From: Chloroflexota bacterium
Lineage (GTDB): Bacteria; Chloroflexota; Anaerolineae; Anaerolineales; UBA4823
DNA length: 64,000 nucleotides
Assembly (NCBI GenBank): GCA_029265355.1
Contig: JAJUJL010000002.1
Span: forward strand, 248,001-312,000
Direction: 5' to 3'
Shown: piece by piece, positions 19,032 through 30,301 of the stretch
Layout of the letters: each line of letters opens with the position of its first letter
Position numbering within the stretch: the first letter of the stretch is position 1
The notes under the pieces: model-generated
Seen by the model: the letters and a program-made list of their open reading frames with translations, nothing else
Database searches by the model: none
What the model was told of the DNA's origin: nothing
Program-made: the position numbers and the translations under genes

Positions 19032-19778
19032 TTAAGCCTGCTCCAGGTGAGTCTTTGGCGGCAGCCGTCCGAGCATCCATACGCTGGCGACCAAAACGAG
19101 CGTGGCGAGAAGTTGATCCACTCGGAGACCCGCGACAAATAGTGCACTATCGGCGCGAAACGCCTCGACCAGCAGACGCAGCGCAGCGTAGGACGCCGCG
19201 AAGCGCAGAAAATATTCACCCAGGTGATCGTAATTGACGCGTTGATGACTCGGCCAAAAGTAAATCAAAATCAACAGTGCGCCAAGGATTTCGTATATCT
19301 GCGTTGGGTGTCGCTTGGCGCTGAACAGTTCGATCGCCCAGGGAAGGTTGGTTTCGGTACCAAAGAAATTGCCAGAAGCGAGGTGGCTGACGCCCAGGCC
19401 AATTGCCAGCACCGCTGCGAGCGGAGTGATCGAATCCAGAAGAGGCCAGGAGGATAGATTGCGCTTCTGAGCATAGATCGCACTGACGATCATGGCAGCG
19501 AAGATCCCACCGGGCAGGTCCAATAGGGAGGGATTCAACGAGATCAGGGATACCGGGCTTTCTATGAAAGCTGCTGGATAGCGGAGGACATAAAGCAGGC
19601 GTGCTCCCGCGATGCTTGCGACCAACACGATTGCAACCAGGTTGTAGAGGTGGCTTGGGTCAATGCCGCGCGAAAGTGAATGTTTTTCGGCCAGAGAGAG
19701 TCCTAACCAGAGGGCAATCAGGAGCGCAAGGCCGGGAGTTTGGATGGCAAGTGGGCCAATGTTCAGTACTGGCAGCAT
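19032..19778 (-). CDS. lgt: Divergent Lgt-family (prolipoprotein diacylglyceryl transferase) membrane protein
   Basis: The 248-residue polytopic protein has the Lgt layout: PLAIQTPGLALLIALWLGL, IAGARLLYVL, RHPTQIYEILGALLI and a final AFRADSALFVAGLRVDQLLATLVL. Several catalytic landmarks are changed. The HGG loop reads LPGGIFAA (no His). RIGNFxNGE reads ASGNFFGTE, which keeps Asn and Glu but loses the Arg. The following loop is shorter. It may be an altered transferase or a non-lipidating homologue. Its start overlaps the stop of the upstream TlpA gene by one base. The nearby genes encode lipoproteins, which fits an Lgt-type role. Confidence 0.75.
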   Translation of the reverse strand: MLPVLNIGPLAIQTPGLALLIALWLGLSLAEKHSLSRGIDPSHLYNLVAIVLVASIAGARLLYVLRYPAAFIESPVSLISLNPSLLDLPGGIFAAMIVSAIYAQKRNLSSWPLLDSITPLAAVLAIGLGVSHLASGNFFGTETNLPWAIELFSAKRHPTQIYEILGALLILIYFWPSHQRVNYDHLGEYFLRFAASYAALRLLVEAFRADSALFVAGLRVDQLLATLVLVASVWMLGRLPPKTHLEQA

Positions 19779-20335
19779 TATGGATCCTTTTCAATCAGTT
19801 GTTCAGCCCGCACTCTCAGCAGCGCCTCTGCCATGGGTCCTCCAACCACCACATCTTGAATGATGCCTGCTCGATCGACAAAGAATGTGGTGGGCATTGC
19901 CTGCAGTTGATAGAGAGATGAGACTTCCCCATCCTGATCGAGCAGAATAGGAAAAGTGAGATTCAGGGAAGATGCAAAATCCAAGGCAGTTTGCAGTTCA
20001 TCTTGATGGGTGGTGTTGATCGCCAGTATGACCAGGCCATCCGCTTGATAATCCTGGTACACCCTCTCTAAGGCAGGCATCTCGGCCCGGCATGGTGGAC
20101 ACCACGATGCCCACAAGTTGATGATGACTGGTTTGCCCCGCAGATCTTGCAGGGTGTAGAGCGTGCCATCTGTCGCTGAAAGGGTGAAATTCGGTGCGGC
20201 AAACGATGTGCGCGGTAATGGCAGAGTCGTGTAGGAACTGCTGCCAGGGGGTATTCTCGTCAACCAAATCCAGCCTGAAGCTGCCAGCAAACATGCCAAG
20301 GCGAGCAAATTATAGCGGCGTTGTCGATGCGTCAT
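19778..20335 (-). CDS. TlpA/ResA-type membrane-anchored thioredoxin
   Basis: The 185-residue protein has an N-terminal signal anchor (YNLLALACLLAASGWIWL) and an extracytoplasmic thioredoxin fold with WASWCPPCRAEMPALE (C79 and C82) and the cis-Pro loop QAMPTTFFVDRAG. Such proteins reduce disulfides in exported proteins or apocytochromes and are themselves reduced by CcdA; a ccdA gene lies at 27991. It is coupled to the Lgt-like gene and divergent from the lipoprotein pair at 20533, across a 197-base gap. Confidence 0.88.
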   Translation of the reverse strand: MTHRQRRYNLLALACLLAASGWIWLTRIPPGSSSYTTLPLPRTSFAAPNFTLSATDGTLYTLQDLRGKPVIINLWASWCPPCRAEMPALERVYQDYQADGLVILAINTTHQDELQTALDFASSLNLTFPILLDQDGEVSSLYQLQAMPTTFFVDRAGIIQDVVVGGPMAEALLRVRAEQLIEKDP

Positions 20336-20532: not shown

Positions 20533-21540
20533 ATGTTCGATGCACACTTTCCAGGCTGGTTGAGTTATCCGCCCCGTTATAACATCCTGTCGAAGCGCCA
20601 ATCCTTGTGGTGGCTGGTGCTCTTGATACTGGCTGTGGGGGTTTCTGGATGCAGGTTGAATATGCCGGGAGCTCAAGAAGCCACACCCACAATTGCTCCA
20701 GCCACAGAAAAGCTGATCACCCCAATCGCGACAAGCTACCCAGCCCCTGCAGGAGAAGTAGAAGCTGCGCCGACTGGCTATCCGGCTCCAGAAATCGGCG
20801 CCACGAATACCGCGGTTGCCTATCCTGGTCCACAGCAATCCGAAGCATCCCCACCTGCCGCCACCATACCGCCAACCGTCACTCCCATGTCCTCACCACG
20901 CCCGACGACAGTCCAGGCGGATGCGACTCTCCAACCGACGGACACTGCCGCTGGCGCTTATCCTGCGCCTCAAATACAGGTCACTTTGACTTCGACAGCA
21001 ATGGGATACCCGGGGCCGCCAGATACCCCGTTGCCAGAAGCGCTGCCTCTTCAGGGCGCGGCCACTTCTTCGCCTTATCCCGGCCCTCAACCCAGCATTA
21101 CACCGCTTCCGTTCACCGCCCAAACGCCGGAAATGACGAGAGGTGTTGCTGGCACAGCCACCGGCACAGTCATCGTGGAAACTCCCACGCCAACACTCTC
21201 GCCGACTGTGGTGCGAACGGTTTTTCAAGCCAGCGATCCAGCCGATTTCAAGCTGGTTTCTGGCAGGTACCAATTGCTCACGTTCTATGCCACCTGGGCG
21301 CCAGATAGCGATGTGATGGCGCCTGTCATTTACAATCTTGAAGGCAAGTATGGGAATCGAATTGGCTTTGTCTATTTGAACCTGGATGATCCGGCGAACA
21401 GCATTTTCAAAGAGATGTTGAGCTCGCGATTGCCTCCCGCGTTTTACTTGTTGGATGCTCAAGGGAGGGTTGTCGATTCATGGTTTGGCAGGATAAGCCT
21501 GGCAGAGTTGGATAGCGTGTTGAGGACAATTTCACCTTAA
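20533..21540 (+). CDS. Lipoprotein with YPxP-repeat linker and cysteine-less thioredoxin-like domain
   Basis: The 335-residue protein has a signal helix ending in the lipobox VSGC (Cys40), a long Pro/Thr/Ala-rich linker (residues about 45-225), and a C-terminal thioredoxin-like domain. The linker contains six copies of a YPAP or YPGP motif. The domain aligns with the protein encoded next (residues about 235-335 against YLDIDDPAND... of the neighbour), but the active site reads WAPDS. Both redox Cys are replaced (A256, S259). It is therefore a surface-anchored, redox-dead thioredoxin-like protein, perhaps a binding partner. The 24-residue n-region is long, so the true start may be downstream. 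It lies 13 bases before its paralogue. Confidence 0.8.
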   Translation: MFDAHFPGWLSYPPRYNILSKRQSLWWLVLLILAVGVSGCRLNMPGAQEATPTIAPATEKLITPIATSYPAPAGEVEAAPTGYPAPEIGATNTAVAYPGPQQSEASPPAATIPPTVTPMSSPRPTTVQADATLQPTDTAAGAYPAPQIQVTLTSTAMGYPGPPDTPLPEALPLQGAATSSPYPGPQPSITPLPFTAQTPEMTRGVAGTATGTVIVETPTPTLSPTVVRTVFQASDPADFKLVSGRYQLLTFYATWAPDSDVMAPVIYNLEGKYGNRIGFVYLNLDDPANSIFKEMLSSRLPPAFYLLDAQGRVVDSWFGRISLAELDSVLRTISP

Positions 21541-21553
21541 TGGAGTAAAGCTC

Positions 21554-22126
21554 ATGATGAGATGTGTGAGAATCGCATTACCGGTACTATTGATAGTGGT
21601 GGTCTCAGCTTGCACTGGCAGCCAGGCTGGGCCAGCGGCTGTGGACGTTGCTTCCGAAAATGTGAGCGCAGCGCCTACATTGCCAGCGACGGCAGGCGTG
21701 CAAGTCGCTGAGACAACACCCCTACATCCAGCATCGCCGGAAGCAACAGCGACTGACTTGCCGGATGCAGAGCCTGGTCCGAAACCTACGCCACGCCCTG
21801 CCATGGAGGCGTCACCTCCGGATAGCGTCCAACTTGCTTCTGGAAAAGTCCAATTAGTGGAATTCTTCGCATTCTGGTGAGCGACCTGCCGCAGCATTGC
21901 CCCCATCGTGCATGGGTTAGAAGCTGAGTATGCCAATCGCATCATCTTTTCGTATCTGGATATCGATGATCCCGCAAACGATGAATTCAAACAGCAACTA
22001 GGGTATCGCTACCAACCCCATTTATTTTTATTGGATGCAGATGGCAATGTCCTAGATCAATGGGTCGGTCCAGTCACGCGTGAAGAGCTGGAGATGGCGT
22101 TTCAAGACGCTTTGGTCGATCAATGA
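21554..22126 (+). CDS. Thioredoxin-like lipoprotein with in-frame TGA at the active site: candidate selenoprotein (UxxC)
   Basis: ATG 21554 (GGAG eight bases upstream) starts a lipoprotein with lipobox VSAC (Cys20) and a Pro/Ala/Thr-rich linker. A thioredoxin-like domain begins VQLVEFFAFW. Codon 109 is TGA (21878-21880). The same frame then continues ATCRSIAPIVHGLEAEY...YLDIDDPAND...LFLLDADGNVLDQWVG to TGA at 22126, giving 190 residues. Thioredoxins have W-C-x-x-C here, so the TGA replaces exactly the first redox Cys while the second (C112) is kept. No other stop or frameshift is present. I infer selenocysteine insertion. A nonsense mutation or sequencing error is the alternative, and an automatic annotation would end the gene at 21880. 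Confidence 0.72.
21892..21926 (+). promoter_or_regulatory. SECIS-like hairpin downstream of the in-frame TGA
   Basis: Starting 11 bases after the TGA, CAGC (21892-21895) pairs with GCTG (21923-21926). Above a symmetric 6/6 internal loop, CCCAT (21902-21906) pairs with ATGGG (21912-21916). The apical loop is CGTGC, with G in second position 28 bases after the TGA. Bacterial SECIS elements are short stems in this range with a G among the first loop bases. The stem is modest, so this is suggestive only. Confidence 0.5.
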
Positions 22127-22237: not shown

Positions 22238-22265
22238 TACCCTACCCCCGTGGGGGGGGATGGGA
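22238..22265 (+). promoter_or_regulatory. Probable CsoR operator (C-tract/G-tract pseudo-palindrome)
   Basis: TACCCTACCCCC is followed by GT and then GGGGGGGGATGGG. This matches the TACCC...GGGTA-like G/C-tract inverted repeats bound by CsoR-family repressors. It covers the expected transcription start just downstream of the -10 box, so bound repressor would block initiation. Confidence 0.75.
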
Positions 22266-22288
22266 AGGATGACGATTGGCGGATTACG

Positions 22289-22558
22289 ATGAAACATGAA
22301 AGCGCACAGCGCCGTTTGAAAACAATCCAGGGCCACTTGCGCGGCATCCAACGAATGGTTGATGAAGAGGCTTACTGTATCGACATCATCCGCCAAATTC
22401 AAGCGGTGCAGGCGGCTCTGGCAAAAGTGAGCACGCTCATCCTCGAGGAGCATCTAAATTCCTGCCTGATCACCGCTGTGAGAGGTGATAATCCCGATGA
22501 ACGTGAGCGTGTGCTGAAAGAAATCGCGGATGTATTCGCTGCGACTTCTGGCAAGTAG
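22289..22558 (+). CDS. csoR: CsoR-family copper-sensing repressor
   Basis: The 89-residue all-helical DUF156 protein begins MKHESAQRRLKTIQGHLRGIQRMVDEEAYCIDIIRQIQAVQAAL and continues EEHLNSCLITAV. The Cu(I)-ligand set of CsoR is intact: Cys in AYCIDI, then His and Cys in HLNSC. Copper binding releases the repressor from the G-tract operator upstream, inducing copZ and copA. ATG 22289 begins where the family fold begins; the longer frame from 22250 would start within the operator. A different metal or sulfur signal is possible, but the neighbours argue for copper. Confidence 0.9.
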   Translation: MKHESAQRRLKTIQGHLRGIQRMVDEEAYCIDIIRQIQAVQAALAKVSTLILEEHLNSCLITAVRGDNPDERERVLKEIADVFAATSGK

Positions 22559-22592: not shown

Positions 22593-22799
22593 ATGACCAC
22601 TGTAACTTATAGCATCCCCAACATTTCCTGCATGCATTGCGTGCATACAATCCAGACCGAAGTGGGTGATCTGGAAGGCGTCGCCTCGGTGGTGGCGAAC
22701 AAGGATAACCGCACCGCGACGATCACCTTCAATGAGCCTGCCACGGAAGAAAAGATCAAGGCTTTACTGGCCGAAATCAATTATCCAGTCGCTAACTGA
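22593..22799 (+). CDS. copZ: CopZ-like copper chaperone (HMA domain)
   Basis: The 68-residue single heavy-metal-associated domain has the metal-binding loop ISCMHCVHTIQTEV (CxxC) and the usual fold ending AEINYPVAN. It carries Cu(I) to the P-type ATPase encoded next. TTGGAGGT lies just before ATG 22593. It is 34 bases after csoR, and a stable hairpin separates it from copA, which may give it a higher expression level. Confidence 0.9.
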   Translation: MTTVTYSIPNISCMHCVHTIQTEVGDLEGVASVVANKDNRTATITFNEPATEEKIKALLAEINYPVAN

Positions 22800-22892: not shown

Positions 22893-25349
22893 ATGGCAGA
22901 AATTAAGCAAGTAACATTACCGGTTACTGGAATGACCTGCGCCAACTGCGTGGCCACAGTGGAACGTAACCTCAAGAAAGTCGGCGGCGTGCACTCTGCC
23001 GTGGTCAACCTGTCATCCGAGAGAGCCACGGTAGATTTTGACCCATCCCAGACGGGATTGGATGCATTGATTGGCCGCATCCAGCGCGCTGGCTATGATG
23101 TAGCCACTGGCGAGGCTGATTTGCTTGTGCGCCGGATGAGCGATGACAACGATGCACGCCGCCTGGAGAAATCCCTGGCTGCGCTGGAAGGCGTGCGTAG
23201 CGTCCAGGTGAGCTTCACGACGGAAAGAGCCCGCGTCGAATATATTCCCACCCTGGTTTCGCAAGCAGAAATCCGCAAAGCGATCACCGATGCGGGCTTC
23301 GAGGCGGTTGAGGTCGGGGGACAGGGGGAAGATGTCGAAGCCCTGGCGAGGGAGGCGGAGATCCAACAGCAGCGCAAGTATTTGATCATCGGGTTGCTCT
23401 TGACAGTGCCGCTTTTCATTTTCTCGATGGGGCGCGACCTTGGGTTATTGCCCATACCAGCGCACGCCTCGTGGGCAAACTGGGTCATGCTGGCAATGGC
23501 AACGCCGGTGCAGTTTTACGTGGGCTGGCAATATTACGTCGGTGCATTCAAGGCGCTGCGCAATCGTTCTGCGAACATGGATGTGCTGATTGCGATGGGC
23601 TCATCGGCGGCATATTTCTACTCTTTGCCGATCACCTTTGGCTTATTGCATGGGCATGTGTATTTCGAAACCGCGGCGGTCATCATCACTTTGATCAAGC
23701 TGGGTAAGTTTTTGGAGGCGCGCGCCAAAGGGCGCACCAGCGAAGCGATCAAGAAATTGATGGGTCTGCAGGCGAAGATGGCGCGCATCGAGCGCAATGG
23801 TGAAGAGCTGGATGTCAACATCGATGATGTGCGGGTTGGCGATATCGTGCTGGTTCGACCGGGTGAAAAGATACCTGTGGACGGTGTGGTGATAGCCGGG
23901 CGCAGCACGGTGGATGAGTCCATGCTGACCGGAGAATCGCTGCCCGTGGAAAAACGGCCTGGAGATGTGGTTATCGGCGCCACGCTCAATAAACTGGGGT
24001 TGATCAAATTCGAAGCCACCAAAGTGGGCAAAGAAACTGCGCTGGCCCAGATCATTCGCCTGGTCGAAGAGGCCCAGGGGAGTAAAGCGCCTATCCAAAA
24101 ACTGGCTGATCAGGTTTCAGCGATCTTTGTGCCCATCGTCATTGGCATCGCACTGGTTACGTTTTTAGTGTGGTATTTCTTCGTGCCAATGCCAGCCGGT
24201 GCAGACCTCAGCCCTTTCACACGGGCGTTGATCAATATGGTCGCTGTCCTGGTGATTGCTTGCCCGTGTGCGATGGGTTTGGCAACACCTACGGCAGTCA
24301 TGGTCGGTACAGGGAAGGGCGCAGAGCTGGGTATTTTGTTGCGCTCGGGGGAAGCTCTCGAGCGAGCCGGGCGGGTGACTACGGTGGTTTTGGACAAGAC
24401 GGGCACCCTGACGAGAGGCCAGCCAGCCGTGACAGAGATCATCCCTGCCAGCGACCGATTATCAAGTCGTGAGCTGTTGAGACTGGCGGCGTCGGTTGAG
24501 CGCGGGAGCGAGCATCCCTTGGGGGAAGCACTCTTGGCTGAAGCTGGCAACATGGGGCTTTCGCTCGCTGAACCAGAAGGCTTCCAGGCGCAGGTCGGGC
24601 ATGGTGTGACAGCCGAAGTCGAAGGACACAGGGTGCTGGTGGGCAACCTGCGGATGATGACCAGCCTGGGGTTGGATTTGAACGGTTTGAGCGGGCAGAT
24701 CGAGCGCTTGCAAGCAGAGGCCAAGACGGCAATCCTGGTCGCAGTGGGCGATTCACCTGAACATCAAGCCGTTGTCGAGGGTGTGATCGCCGTGGCAGAT
24801 ACTCTCAAGGAAGGGTCGGCTGAAGCAATTGCCGATCTACAGGCAATGGGATTGAAAATTGTGATGATCACCGGCGATAATCGCCAGACTGCTGAAGCAA
24901 TCGCCCGCCAGGTTGGTTTGAGAATTGGGCAAGGCGGGGTGAATATTCTCGCCGAAGTGCTGCCGGGCGACAAGGCGAGCGAGATTAAGCGACTGCAAGC
25001 GGCAGGCGAGGTCGTAGCAATGGTTGGTGATGGGATCAACGATGCTCCAGCGTTGGCCCAGGCGGATGTTGGCATTGCTATCGGCACTGGCACGGACGTC
25101 GCCATGGCGGCAGCTCCAGTCACCCTAATCAGCGGCGACCTGCGAGGTGTTTCCAGAGCGATCCGCCTCTCTCGGCAAACGCTGCGCACGATCAAGCAGA
25201 ATCTCTTTTGGGCGTTCTTTTACAACGTCATTTTGATACCCGCTGCAGCGATGGGTTTGCTCAACCCTATGTTGGCAGCCGGGGCGATGGCTTTCTCCAG
25301 CGTATTTGTGGTGACCAATAGCTTGAGATTGAAGAATCTCAAGGTGTAG
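22893..25349 (+). CDS. copA: Copper-exporting P1B-type ATPase CopA
   Basis: The 818-residue membrane ATPase has two N-terminal HMA domains. The first keeps GMTCANC. The second (residues about 75-145, [18 protein letters not shown]) has the fold but no CxxC, so it cannot bind metal in the usual way. The core is complete: TGES actuator loop ([10 protein letters not shown]), membrane CPC ([13 protein letters not shown]), phosphorylation site D501 in [18 protein letters not shown] nucleotide-binding motif and [20 protein letters not shown] hinge. It exports Cu(I) under csoR control. Confidence 0.95.
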
Positions 25350-27990: not shown

Positions 27991-28731
27991 ATGACCGCAG
28001 CAAATGTGACTTTGGGCCTCGCTTTTTTGGCTGGGCTGGCTTCATTCCTCTCGCCGTGTGTACTGTCACTGGTGCCGGCGTATGTTGGCTACCTTGGTGG
28101 ACGTTCAGCCGCGGCAGCAACTGACCGATCGCCAGGCAACATTGCTGTGACGAACCGGTGGTTGACATTTTCACATGGCCTTGCTTTTGTGCTCGGTTTT
28201 AGTGTTGTGTTTATCGGATTAGGTTTAGCTGCTTCTGCGTTGGGCGGATTATTGTTCGACCTGAGCGATTGGATTGCTAAGATCGGCGGCGTGGTGGTGG
28301 TCATTTTTGGCCTGCACATGATTGGTGTATTCCGCATCCCCTGGTTAGAGTATGATCTCCGGGCGCATAACACGCCTGACCGCAGGCGAGGCTACATTGC
28401 TTCTGCGCTGATGGGCGTTTTCTTTTCAGCGGGGTGGTCGCCGTGCGTTGGACCGGTATTGGGAGCGATTCTCACGCTTGCCCTGAACGGCGGGTCGCTC
28501 ACACAAGGCTTCAGCCTGCTGTCGGCTTATTCCGCCGGGCTGGCGATCCCATTCCTCCTGGCAGCGCTCGGCATCGGCTGGGTAACGACATTGCTCAAGA
28601 GATACGGAAAAGTGATGCGTTACACAGAGATTGCGATGGGTGTCGTGCTGGTCGTGGTTGGCGTTATGCTATTTTTGGGCACTTTCCAGACACTGGCGCG
28701 TTTTGCCCCTTTGATCGATCTAGGATTGTGA
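27991..28731 (+). CDS. ccdA: CcdA-type thiol-disulfide electron transporter
   Basis: The 246-residue, six-helix DsbD/CcdA protein has a conserved Cys in each half of its pseudo-symmetric fold (ASFLSPCVLSLVPAYVGYLGG and FSAGWSPCVGPVLGAIL). It carries electrons from cytoplasmic thioredoxin across the membrane to proteins such as TlpA. TAAGGAG is upstream of ATG 27991. The TlpA gene follows at once, with a possible GTGA-type overlap, so the pair forms a reducing pathway. Confidence 0.92.
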   Translation: MTAANVTLGLAFLAGLASFLSPCVLSLVPAYVGYLGGRSAAAATDRSPGNIAVTNRWLTFSHGLAFVLGFSVVFIGLGLAASALGGLLFDLSDWIAKIGGVVVVIFGLHMIGVFRIPWLEYDLRAHNTPDRRRGYIASALMGVFFSAGWSPCVGPVLGAILTLALNGGSLTQGFSLLSAYSAGLAIPFLLAALGIGWVTTLLKRYGKVMRYTEIAMGVVLVVVGVMLFLGTFQTLARFAPLIDLGL

Positions 28732-28736
28732 GCACA

Positions 28737-29303
28737 ATGGCATCAAACCGGGCGAGTGCTTTCCTGGCAGTGGCAGCGGGTATGCTGGCTGGCGCTGGCT
28801 TAGGGGTGATTATTTTGTTTGGCTTAGGAAATCTGGATTTACTCGCCTCGCTCAAGTCACCCTGGGAAAATCAACCTGCGCCAAAGGTCGGGTATTCGGC
28901 GCCAGATTTTGAGCTGAACAACCTGGCAGGGGAAACGATTAAACTGAGCAATCTGCGCGGTAAGCCTGTTTTGATTAACTTCTGGGCTACCTGGTGTGGA
29001 CCTTGCCGCCTGGAAATGCCTGATCTTCAAAAGATCTACGAAAACTATCAAGGGGATTTCGAGGTGCTGGCAGTAAACGCCGATGAACAGGAGAGAATAG
29101 TGGCGAAGTTTGCCAAAGATATTGGCATAACCTTTGAGGTCCTCCTGGATCCCGGTGCAAATGTGCAAAGCCTCTACCAACTGCGCGGTTATCCGACATC
29201 CTTCCTGGTGGATCAGGAAGGCGTCATCCGCGTCCAACACATTGGCATCATGCACGAAGCCCAGTTGGTAGAATACCTGGCAGAGGTGGGCTTGAGCAGA
29301 TGA
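28737..29303 (+). CDS. TlpA/ResA-type membrane-anchored thioredoxin
   Basis: The 188-residue protein has an N-terminal anchor helix (ASAFLAVAAGMLAGAGLGVIILFGLG) and an extracytoplasmic AhpC/TSA-Redoxin domain with FWATWCGPCRLEMPDL (C87 and C90) and the cis-Pro loop RGYPTSFLVDQEG. CcdA, encoded just before, is the expected electron donor. GTG 28728, overlapping the ccdA TGA, is an alternative start. It resembles the TlpA at 19778 but is a distinct paralogue. It overlaps the next gene by ATGA. Confidence 0.9.
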   Translation: MASNRASAFLAVAAGMLAGAGLGVIILFGLGNLDLLASLKSPWENQPAPKVGYSAPDFELNNLAGETIKLSNLRGKPVLINFWATWCGPCRLEMPDLQKIYENYQGDFEVLAVNADEQERIVAKFAKDIGITFEVLLDPGANVQSLYQLRGYPTSFLVDQEGVIRVQHIGIMHEAQLVEYLAEVGLSR

Positions 29304-30301
29304 TCACGGTCACATTATACAGCCGCAGCGATTGCCACTTGTGTGAACAAGCTTTCGATGACCTAAAGAGCCTGCAAGAGCAATACCCTCACAAGCTCAC
29401 CGTGATTGATGTGGACAGCACACAGGAATTGCGCCGTAAGTACGGGTTTGAAGTGCCGGTGGTGGAAATCGGCCCCTATACATTGAAAGCCCCCATCACG
29501 CGACAAGAGCTGCAATTCACGCTGGCAGCCGCCCGAGACCGGCAAGTTTCCATCGACCGCTTGAATGATCCAGCCTACATGGGACCGGTGACCTGGACGC
29601 GCTCCGATGGATTCACCTACTGGATGTCCCGGCATTACATGGCAGTCTTTAATCTCCTGGTATTTATCTATGTGGGATTGCCATTTTTAGCGCCGCTGTT
29701 GATGAAAGCCGGTGCAGAGATACCAGCGCGATGGATCTATCGAGGTTATGGGATGGTTTGCCATCAGTTGGGATACCGTTCGTTCTACATTCTTGGCGAA
29801 CAGGCAGAGTATCCGCGAACTGCTGCGGGTGTGCCCGGTTTGCGAACTTTTGCTGAGGCGACGGGATTGAGCGAAGAATCGGATCCTCAGGCGCTGCTGG
29901 ATGCCAGGAATTTCATTGGAAACGACCAGCTTGGTTACAAAGTGGCCTTATGCCAGCGGGATGTATCGATTTACGGTGCGATCCTGTTATTTGGCTTGCT
30001 TTTCGCCGCCACCGGGCGTCGCATACCCGCCTTGCCCTGGTACTTGTGGATTGTGATTGGCATTCTGCCAATTGCCTGGGACGGTCTCTCGCAACTCATC
30101 AGCCAACCGCCGCTTGGCTTCTTGCCATACCGTGAGAGCACGCCGCTTTTGCGAATAGTGACCGGTGGGTTGTTCGGGCTGACCACAGCCTGGTTCGGGT
30201 ACCCAATGGTGGAAGAAACTATGGCTGATACGCGCCAGCTCATGAGCGCCCGGCTCGAGCGAGCGCGACGGACGTCTGCAAATGCACTTCCAGCAGATTA
30301 A
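29300..30301 (+). CDS. Glutaredoxin-like domain fused to DUF2085 membrane domain
   Basis: The 333-residue protein opens with a glutaredoxin-like domain (residues 1-80, YSRSDCHLCEQA with C12xxC15, and VPVVEIGPY as cis-Pro loop). A hydrophobic DUF2085 part follows, with about five helices and Cys-containing motifs YRGYGMVCHQLGYRSFYILGEQAEYPR and ALCQRDVSIYGAILLFG. DUF2085 proteins are of unknown function. The fusion and the position behind ccdA and tlpA suggest that the membrane domain takes part in thiol chemistry. The last 20 bases overlap pgeF. Confidence 0.8.
   Translation: MITVTLYSRSDCHLCEQAFDDLKSLQEQYPHKLTVIDVDSTQELRRKYGFEVPVVEIGPYTLKAPITRQELQFTLAAARDRQVSIDRLNDPAYMGPVTWTRSDGFTYWMSRHYMAVFNLLVFIYVGLPFLAPLLMKAGAEIPARWIYRGYGMVCHQLGYRSFYILGEQAEYPRTAAGVPGLRTFAEATGLSEESDPQALLDARNFIGNDQLGYKVALCQRDVSIYGAILLFGLLFAATGRRIPALPWYLWIVIGILPIAWDGLSQLISQPPLGFLPYRESTPLLRIVTGGLFGLTTAWFGYPMVEETMADTRQLMSARLERARRTSANALPAD

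Follow-up and report, generated by a model that had tools for sequence, protein, structure and literature searches.

The frame at 21554-22126 of the window (the whole stretch of DNA analysed, 64,000 nucleotides of a Chloroflexota genome) is, with high confidence, a selenoprotein gene, and its product is predicted to be a thioredoxin-fold lipoprotein with selenocysteine (Sec) at residue 109. This selenoprotein reading is strongly supported by sequence comparison: the in-frame TGA recurs at the same codon across relatives, is followed by a conserved hairpin and occurs in a genome that carries the genes for Sec decoding. The features of the gene are:

21554-22126, plus strand: gene of the putative Sec thioredoxin lipoprotein, 190 residues with UGA 109 read as Sec
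21611-21613, plus strand: lipobox cysteine Cys20 (VSAC, residues 17-20, by lipobox pattern), likely lipid-anchored
21878-21880, plus strand: UGA codon for the predicted Sec109; the aligned codon is TGA in 127 of 158 copies and Cys in 23
21887-21889, plus strand: Cys112, likely the resolving cysteine of UxxC; a Cys codon in all 127 TGA copies
21902-21916, plus strand: candidate bacterial SECIS hairpin, stem 21902-21906 with 21912-21916, loop CGUGC at 21907-21911
22016-22018, plus strand: Pro155, likely cis-proline; invariant in the 10-row and 46-row alignments

The in-frame UGA and its conservation in relatives

The single in-frame TGA followed by 81 sense codons, which a sequence-only reading of this DNA had pointed out, was borne out. 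The only interruption of the frame is the TGA at 21878-21880 (codon 109), situated between VEFFAFW and ATCRSIAP, and the 81 sense codons behind it end in a TGA stop at 22124-22126. The read-through product consists of a signal peptide up to VSAC (ending at residue 20), a low-complexity stretch, the segment VQLVEFFAFW-U-ATCRSIAPIVHGLE (ending at residue 123) and 67 more residues. Residues 97 to 181 match the Pfam family Thioredoxin (PF00085) across the TGA (1.3e-12, 48.1 bits, cut-off 23.5), with codon 109 at the position of the first redox cysteine.

Of 400 genomes of the order, 164 contain a homologue by translated search (threshold 1e-14). In a set of 400 genomes covering the phylum, 20 matched, namely 17 of the order (the window's own genome included) and three of the class. 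A translated search of 61 genomes (the own genome and 60 relatives) returned strong homologues, many of them with exactly one TGA, and the relatives in public genomes (35–61% identity) stem from metagenome-assembled genomes titled Anaerolineae, Anaerolineales or Chloroflexi. The plasmid search yielded 97 records, none of which reached 60% identity or covered 80% of the query; the annotated records among the matches listed are ordinary thioredoxins.

The 158 copies whose codon state was read come from 152 genomes, and 149 of these genomes belong to the 164 matching ones of the order; the other 15 and unlisted second copies, e.g. that of genome G293, lie outside this count, and the named loci (L055 among them) were left out of both the codon and the hairpin counts. 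The aligned codon is TGA in 127 copies (124 genomes), Cys in 23 and something else in eight, i.e. seven Cys-less or half-Cys copies and L093. In the latter (G050:C24), the frame shifts near the site, a TGA stands in the adjacent frame and the hairpin is kept, so that it is probably a frame-shifted TGA copy. Three codons past the TGA, a cysteine is encoded in all 127 TGA copies (TGC in 123, TGT in four). The residue preceding Sec is Thr in 69 of these copies (e.g. L071 in G060 and L089 in G047), Trp in 57 and Phe in one, while the first redox cysteine is preceded by Trp in 23 out of 23 Cys copies. The earlier assignment of the TGA to Sec109 at the redox position of a UxxC motif is thus supported by sequence comparison. 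Tandem pairs of TGA copies occur at L069 (G041) and L160 (G148). At L099 (G015:C1:2848516-2848806), a thioredoxin-like match that is more distant (5.5e-16) has one TGA.

A single mutation hitting the catalytic codon of a Cys thioredoxin, or a sequencing error at this position, would yield just such a lone TGA in an otherwise open frame. The same TGA is present in 124 genomes, however, and the flanking frame is kept as a rule, which excludes a sequencing error or a chance nonsense codon; together with the covarying hairpin described below, this leaves a negligible probability for a pseudogene or an error. With 127 of 158 copies carrying TGA at the very same aligned codon, the position of the site is not due to chance, as the sequence-only reading had already argued from the single gene. 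Frame-disrupted relatives, which the same reading had named as a sign of a pseudogene, are exceptions among the copies read: the aligned homologues as a rule carry TGA or Cys in a frame that is otherwise intact, apart from the shifted L093 and a TAA in genome G116. The latter lies in the match of L141 (G116:C14:53095-53580), a TGA copy. Annotation pipelines that treat TGA as a stop would split or truncate the gene here and in the 123 other genomes in which it was read.

The hairpin behind the UGA and the Sec-decoding genes

Twenty TGA copies align without gaps behind the UGA. For this set, RNAalifold predicted one hairpin, in which nucleotides 24-29 pair with 35-40 (the T of TGA being number 1). 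Standard pairs make up 95.8% versus a mean of 89.8 in shuffled alignments (none of 500 shuffles was as high), four of the six hairpin pairs are altered on both sides, and sliding the structure by one to three columns reduces the standard pairs to 6–45%. The number of further pair types in this set was not above that of the shuffles (5 versus a mean of 5.3). Imposed on 14 Cys copies, the same structure gave 57.1% standard pairs, which is within the range of the shuffles. The loci L050, L052, L053 and L054, which duplicate other genomes, were left out of this comparison.

At fixed offsets, the 5-bp core of the hairpin is complete in 126 of the 127 TGA copies, in none of the 23 Cys copies and in one of the eight others (L093), so that none of the seven Cys-less or half-Cys copies has it. 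In 94 of the 127 TGA copies, pair 28-36 is A-T; in the other 33 it is G-C. The second loop position is G in all loops among those listed, the commonest of which are GGTTC (63) and CGTGC (56). Random synonymous recoding with the codon usage of the family (500 rounds) kept the core in 17.3 copies on average and in a maximum of 29 out of 127; the coding requirement therefore does not explain the hairpin.

The published limits for bacterial SECIS elements, as given in the available part of PMC13188914, are a loop of 3–9 nt, a stem of 4–16 bp, a G in the first two loop positions, a spacing of 16–37 nt and a minimum free energy of at most -7.5. The window's hairpin lies within these limits as excerpted, with a loop of 5 nt that begins with CG and starts 26 nt behind the UGA, and a stem of 5 bp. 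The folding energy amounts to -9.4 kcal/mol for nucleotides 1-45, and is weak for the hairpin region by itself (nucleotides 20-45, -5.2). The 53 nt from the TGA onwards fold no better than their shuffles (z 0.59; 143 of 200 at least as stable). Since the window sequence taken by itself gives no fold signal, the evidence for a SECIS element comes from the comparison of relatives.

The decoding genes are evident at the sequence level in the window's genome (5.05 Mb, 64 contigs, 98.45% complete), so that the search for sel genes suggested beforehand had a positive outcome: selA, selB, selC and selD are all present. SelA scored 448 bits and SelB, encoded by a 637-codon frame, 344 bits with its parts combined. 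SelD (358 bits; L018, G000:C31:236905-237837) contains one in-frame TGA of its own (CAGUASK) and is for this reason likely a selenoprotein, too. The tRNA-Sec has the anticodon tca, scored 75.4 bits and was also called by ARAGORN. The only other match above the tRNA-Sec gathering score turned out to be a tRNA-Ser.

Within the order, SelB (scored as present at E 1e-60 or better) was found in 113 of 122 genomes with the TGA form versus 10 of 22 with the Cys form (Fisher p 9e-7, not corrected for kinship). Among the nine TGA-form genomes lacking a SelB match, SelA was found in G035 and G054 and tRNA-Sec in G077, G106, G309, G388 and G394; G374 and G390 (78% and 71% complete, respectively) were searched for SelB and tRNA-Sec and gave neither. 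Both TGA-form genomes outside the order have tRNA-Sec. Taken together, at least one Sec-decoding gene was found in 122 of the 124 TGA-form genomes. In genus g32, SelB is present in none of the ten Cys-form genomes.

The same data bear on two other ways of reading the codon. UGA might be decoded as an amino acid other than Sec, through an altered genetic code or simple read-through, since the frame is open under any sense reading of TGA; beyond that, nothing specific speaks for it. Against it, the gene itself ends in TGA, as do 25 of the 50 ORFs of 100 amino acids or more that were called mechanically in the window (spurious ones, e.g. 21532-21990, included), so that TGA is not a sense codon here in general. 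Moreover, 23 of the 31 non-TGA copies have Cys codons and the Sec machinery is present in the genome, which makes this explanation very improbable. Decoding of UGA as Sec competes with termination, and the codon could act mainly as a stop, giving a 108-residue lipoprotein with marginal read-through; an in-frame GTG at 21908 could then start a separate ORF. If translation ended ahead of the active site, however, selection would have no thioredoxin to act on, and the 127 TGA copies show conservation of both the hairpin and the domain that follows the UGA. A mainly terminating UGA is accordingly regarded as very improbable, and Sec insertion at codon 109 is the reading followed below.

The predicted product and its gene neighbourhood

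The AlphaFold2 model confidently predicts a thioredoxin fold. Its mean pLDDT is 77.7, with ten-residue means of 92–98 for residues 91-190 and of 53–60 for residues 1-80, and residue 109 is placed directly before a helix formed by residues 110-126. The top PDB matches of the model are thioredoxins, two of which are labelled by their fusion partner or complex. Pfam score, PDB matches and model thus agree in placing the protein in the thioredoxin superfamily (PF00085). We take Pro155 to be the cis-proline of this fold. A lipobox cysteine as in bacterial lipoproteins was recognized by a loose pattern of our own, which fits 116 of the 120 TGA copies whose 5' end is complete, as well as 19 of 21 Cys copies and one of six others. 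As for the surface lipoprotein proposed earlier, the lipobox is present, and a surface location is a prediction from this motif.

In the proposed mechanism, SelB with Sec-tRNA-Sec would bind the hairpin, the loop of which starts 26 nt behind the UGA, and the ribosome would then read UGA 109 as selenocysteine. The product would be exported and lipid-anchored at Cys20, with a low-complexity tether carrying the thioredoxin domain and its Sec109-x-x-Cys112 active site. Its most likely role would be that of an extracytoplasmic thiol-disulfide (selenol) oxidoreductase. The selenolate of Sec109 would attack the substrate and Cys112 would resolve the selenenyl-sulfide, in keeping with the general chemistry of thioredoxins. 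Sec insertion, localisation, the direction of electron flow and the substrate of the product are matters that we infer.

The genes surrounding the Sec gene are, apart from the paralogue, given for context only:

19032-19778, minus strand: Lgt, prolipoprotein diacylglyceryl transferase
19778-20335, minus strand: TlpA-like (AhpC-TSA) thioredoxin-fold gene, divergent
20533-21540, plus strand: paralogue in tandem, the redox residues replaced by Ala and Ser (WAPDS), 43% identity over residues 73-182
22250-22558, plus strand: CsoR-type metal-sensitive repressor (Trns_repr_metal)
22593-22799, plus strand: heavy-metal-associated domain protein (HMA)
22893-25349, plus strand: heavy-metal P-type ATPase (E1-E2_ATPase and HMA)

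The paralogue, located upstream of the Sec gene, has GCG as codon 109 and AGC as codon 112. By prediction its frame, too, is lipoprotein-like, and it includes a long stretch of low complexity. Similar Cys-less copies were read in six further genomes (G004, G015, G020, G022, G028 and G031), and in G015 the Cys-less copy adjoins a TGA copy. The role of such a Cys-less twin is one question raised by these data; another is why selenium should be used in a membrane-anchored thioredoxin outside the cytoplasm. Further redox genes lie nearby in the window, at 28434-30301: one is of the AhpC-TSA type, and in another a glutaredoxin-like domain is fused to DUF2085.

The Sec gene is followed in the window by genes for CsoR, HMA and a P-type ATPase, which raises the possibility that copper or metal handling is the particular job of the Sec thioredoxin. 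Among the 28 copies for which 4 kb or more of downstream sequence is available, 20 have a same-strand P-type ATPase gene within 5.5 kb downstream (8 of 14 TGA copies, 7 of 8 Cys copies and 5 of 6 others). Much of this may be inherited synteny, however; only 12 of the 102 copies with sufficient flanking sequence have CsoR within 2.5 kb, and 37 of 101 have another kind of neighbour, an aldehyde-dehydrogenase-like gene, upstream. A TlpA-like gene is located upstream in 22 of 101 copies. In this count over family copies, from which L093 and L144 were left out, no universal partner gene emerged and the neighbours are clade-specific. The metal link is suggestive, and as the specific task of the protein it appears rather unlikely.

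Evolution of the family and comparison with known thioredoxins

On an unrooted tree of 157 rows and 105 columns, the Sec state changes six times, the Cys state six times and the remaining states four times, compared to shuffled means of 27.8, 22.0 and 6.9, respectively. The tree, from which L093 was left out, has few resolved forks, several long branches and two warned joins. The three codon states are clustered on it, yet need several changes, and being unrooted it cannot tell the direction of change between Sec and Cys. L055 (6361-6423), a Cys form with a TGT codon, has kept all six hairpin pairs and the loop, which goes against a perfect split of the hairpin between TGA and Cys copies; its hairpin is possibly the fossil of a lost selenocysteine. 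Five of the six pairs are kept in the Cys copies L051 and L056, and the remnants in all three copies fit a loss of Sec. Remnants of SECIS elements were described earlier (PMC1794560, available in part).

One reading, which we regard as quite doubtful as a whole, would have an extracytoplasmic selenothioredoxin that is spread across the lineage, with Sec as its dominant and perhaps ancestral state. It would have given rise repeatedly to Cys forms, some with a fossil SECIS, and to redox-dead tandem copies serving as partner or scaffold, and would be tied to metal export at the envelope. Being Sec-rich (127 TGA versus 23 Cys among 158 copies) and including, for example, the ten Cys-form genomes of genus g32, none with SelB, the family offers a good natural series on the keeping and losing of Sec.

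The "new selenoprotein" of the sequence-only reading holds for the family and not for its type, because thioredoxins with Sec in a UxxC motif are already known (PMC1794560, PMC1088965, PMC9312934 and PMC13188914, each as far as its text was available). We therefore file the Sec thioredoxin lipoproteins as a new family and Sec thioredoxins as such as known. No earlier report of the family was found in the literature as represented by titles and the beginnings of abstracts, with few subscription papers covered, and the terms "Chloroflex", "Anaerolin" and "lipoprotein" are absent from the main text of PMC13188914. In the accessible parts of these sources, Sec-containing thioredoxin (PF00085) is inventoried in PMC13188914 and counted in PMC1794560 and PMC1088965. 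With these proteins, as portrayed there, the window protein shares the thioredoxin fold, Sec in place of the first redox cysteine and the UxxC motif. It differs from them, on the same partial basis, in being a predicted lipoprotein on a long tether, and its family in that 69 of the 127 TGA copies have Thr, not Trp, ahead of Sec. The protein is not placed within TrxA by the model TIGR01068 (48.4 bits, equivalog cut-off 96.8).

A second known group is NF041057, the Rcas_1661 family thioredoxin-like (seleno)lipoprotein, listed as DsbG-like in the available portion of PMC13188914. As far as that portion describes it, this family resembles the present one in being a thioredoxin-like lipoprotein able to carry Sec in a UxxC motif, and both occur in the same genomes. 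Membership of the window protein in NF041057 was rejected (22.3 bits versus a cut-off of 190), and it reaches no NCBIfam cut-off. NF041057 is matched by 16 of the 46 scanned family members with E-values of 0.01 or below, the best being 1.2e-5. The window's genome has three NF041057 matches, and both among the matches listed are on other contigs. NF041057 relatives were observed in 61 of 61 genomes searched, some with one TGA; among these 61, a match above the cut-off was found in genome G045 only, where L225 (G045:C424) is one relative.

The oxidoreductases of the TlpA/ResA/DsbE type presumably likewise have a membrane-anchored thioredoxin fold outside the cytoplasm, which is the arrangement predicted for the window product. 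Unlike DsbE and ResA, the window protein scores 31.7 and 20.1 bits with the respective models (cut-offs 123.15 and 170), and unlike the TlpA types, its best Pfam match is PF00085 instead of AhpC-TSA.
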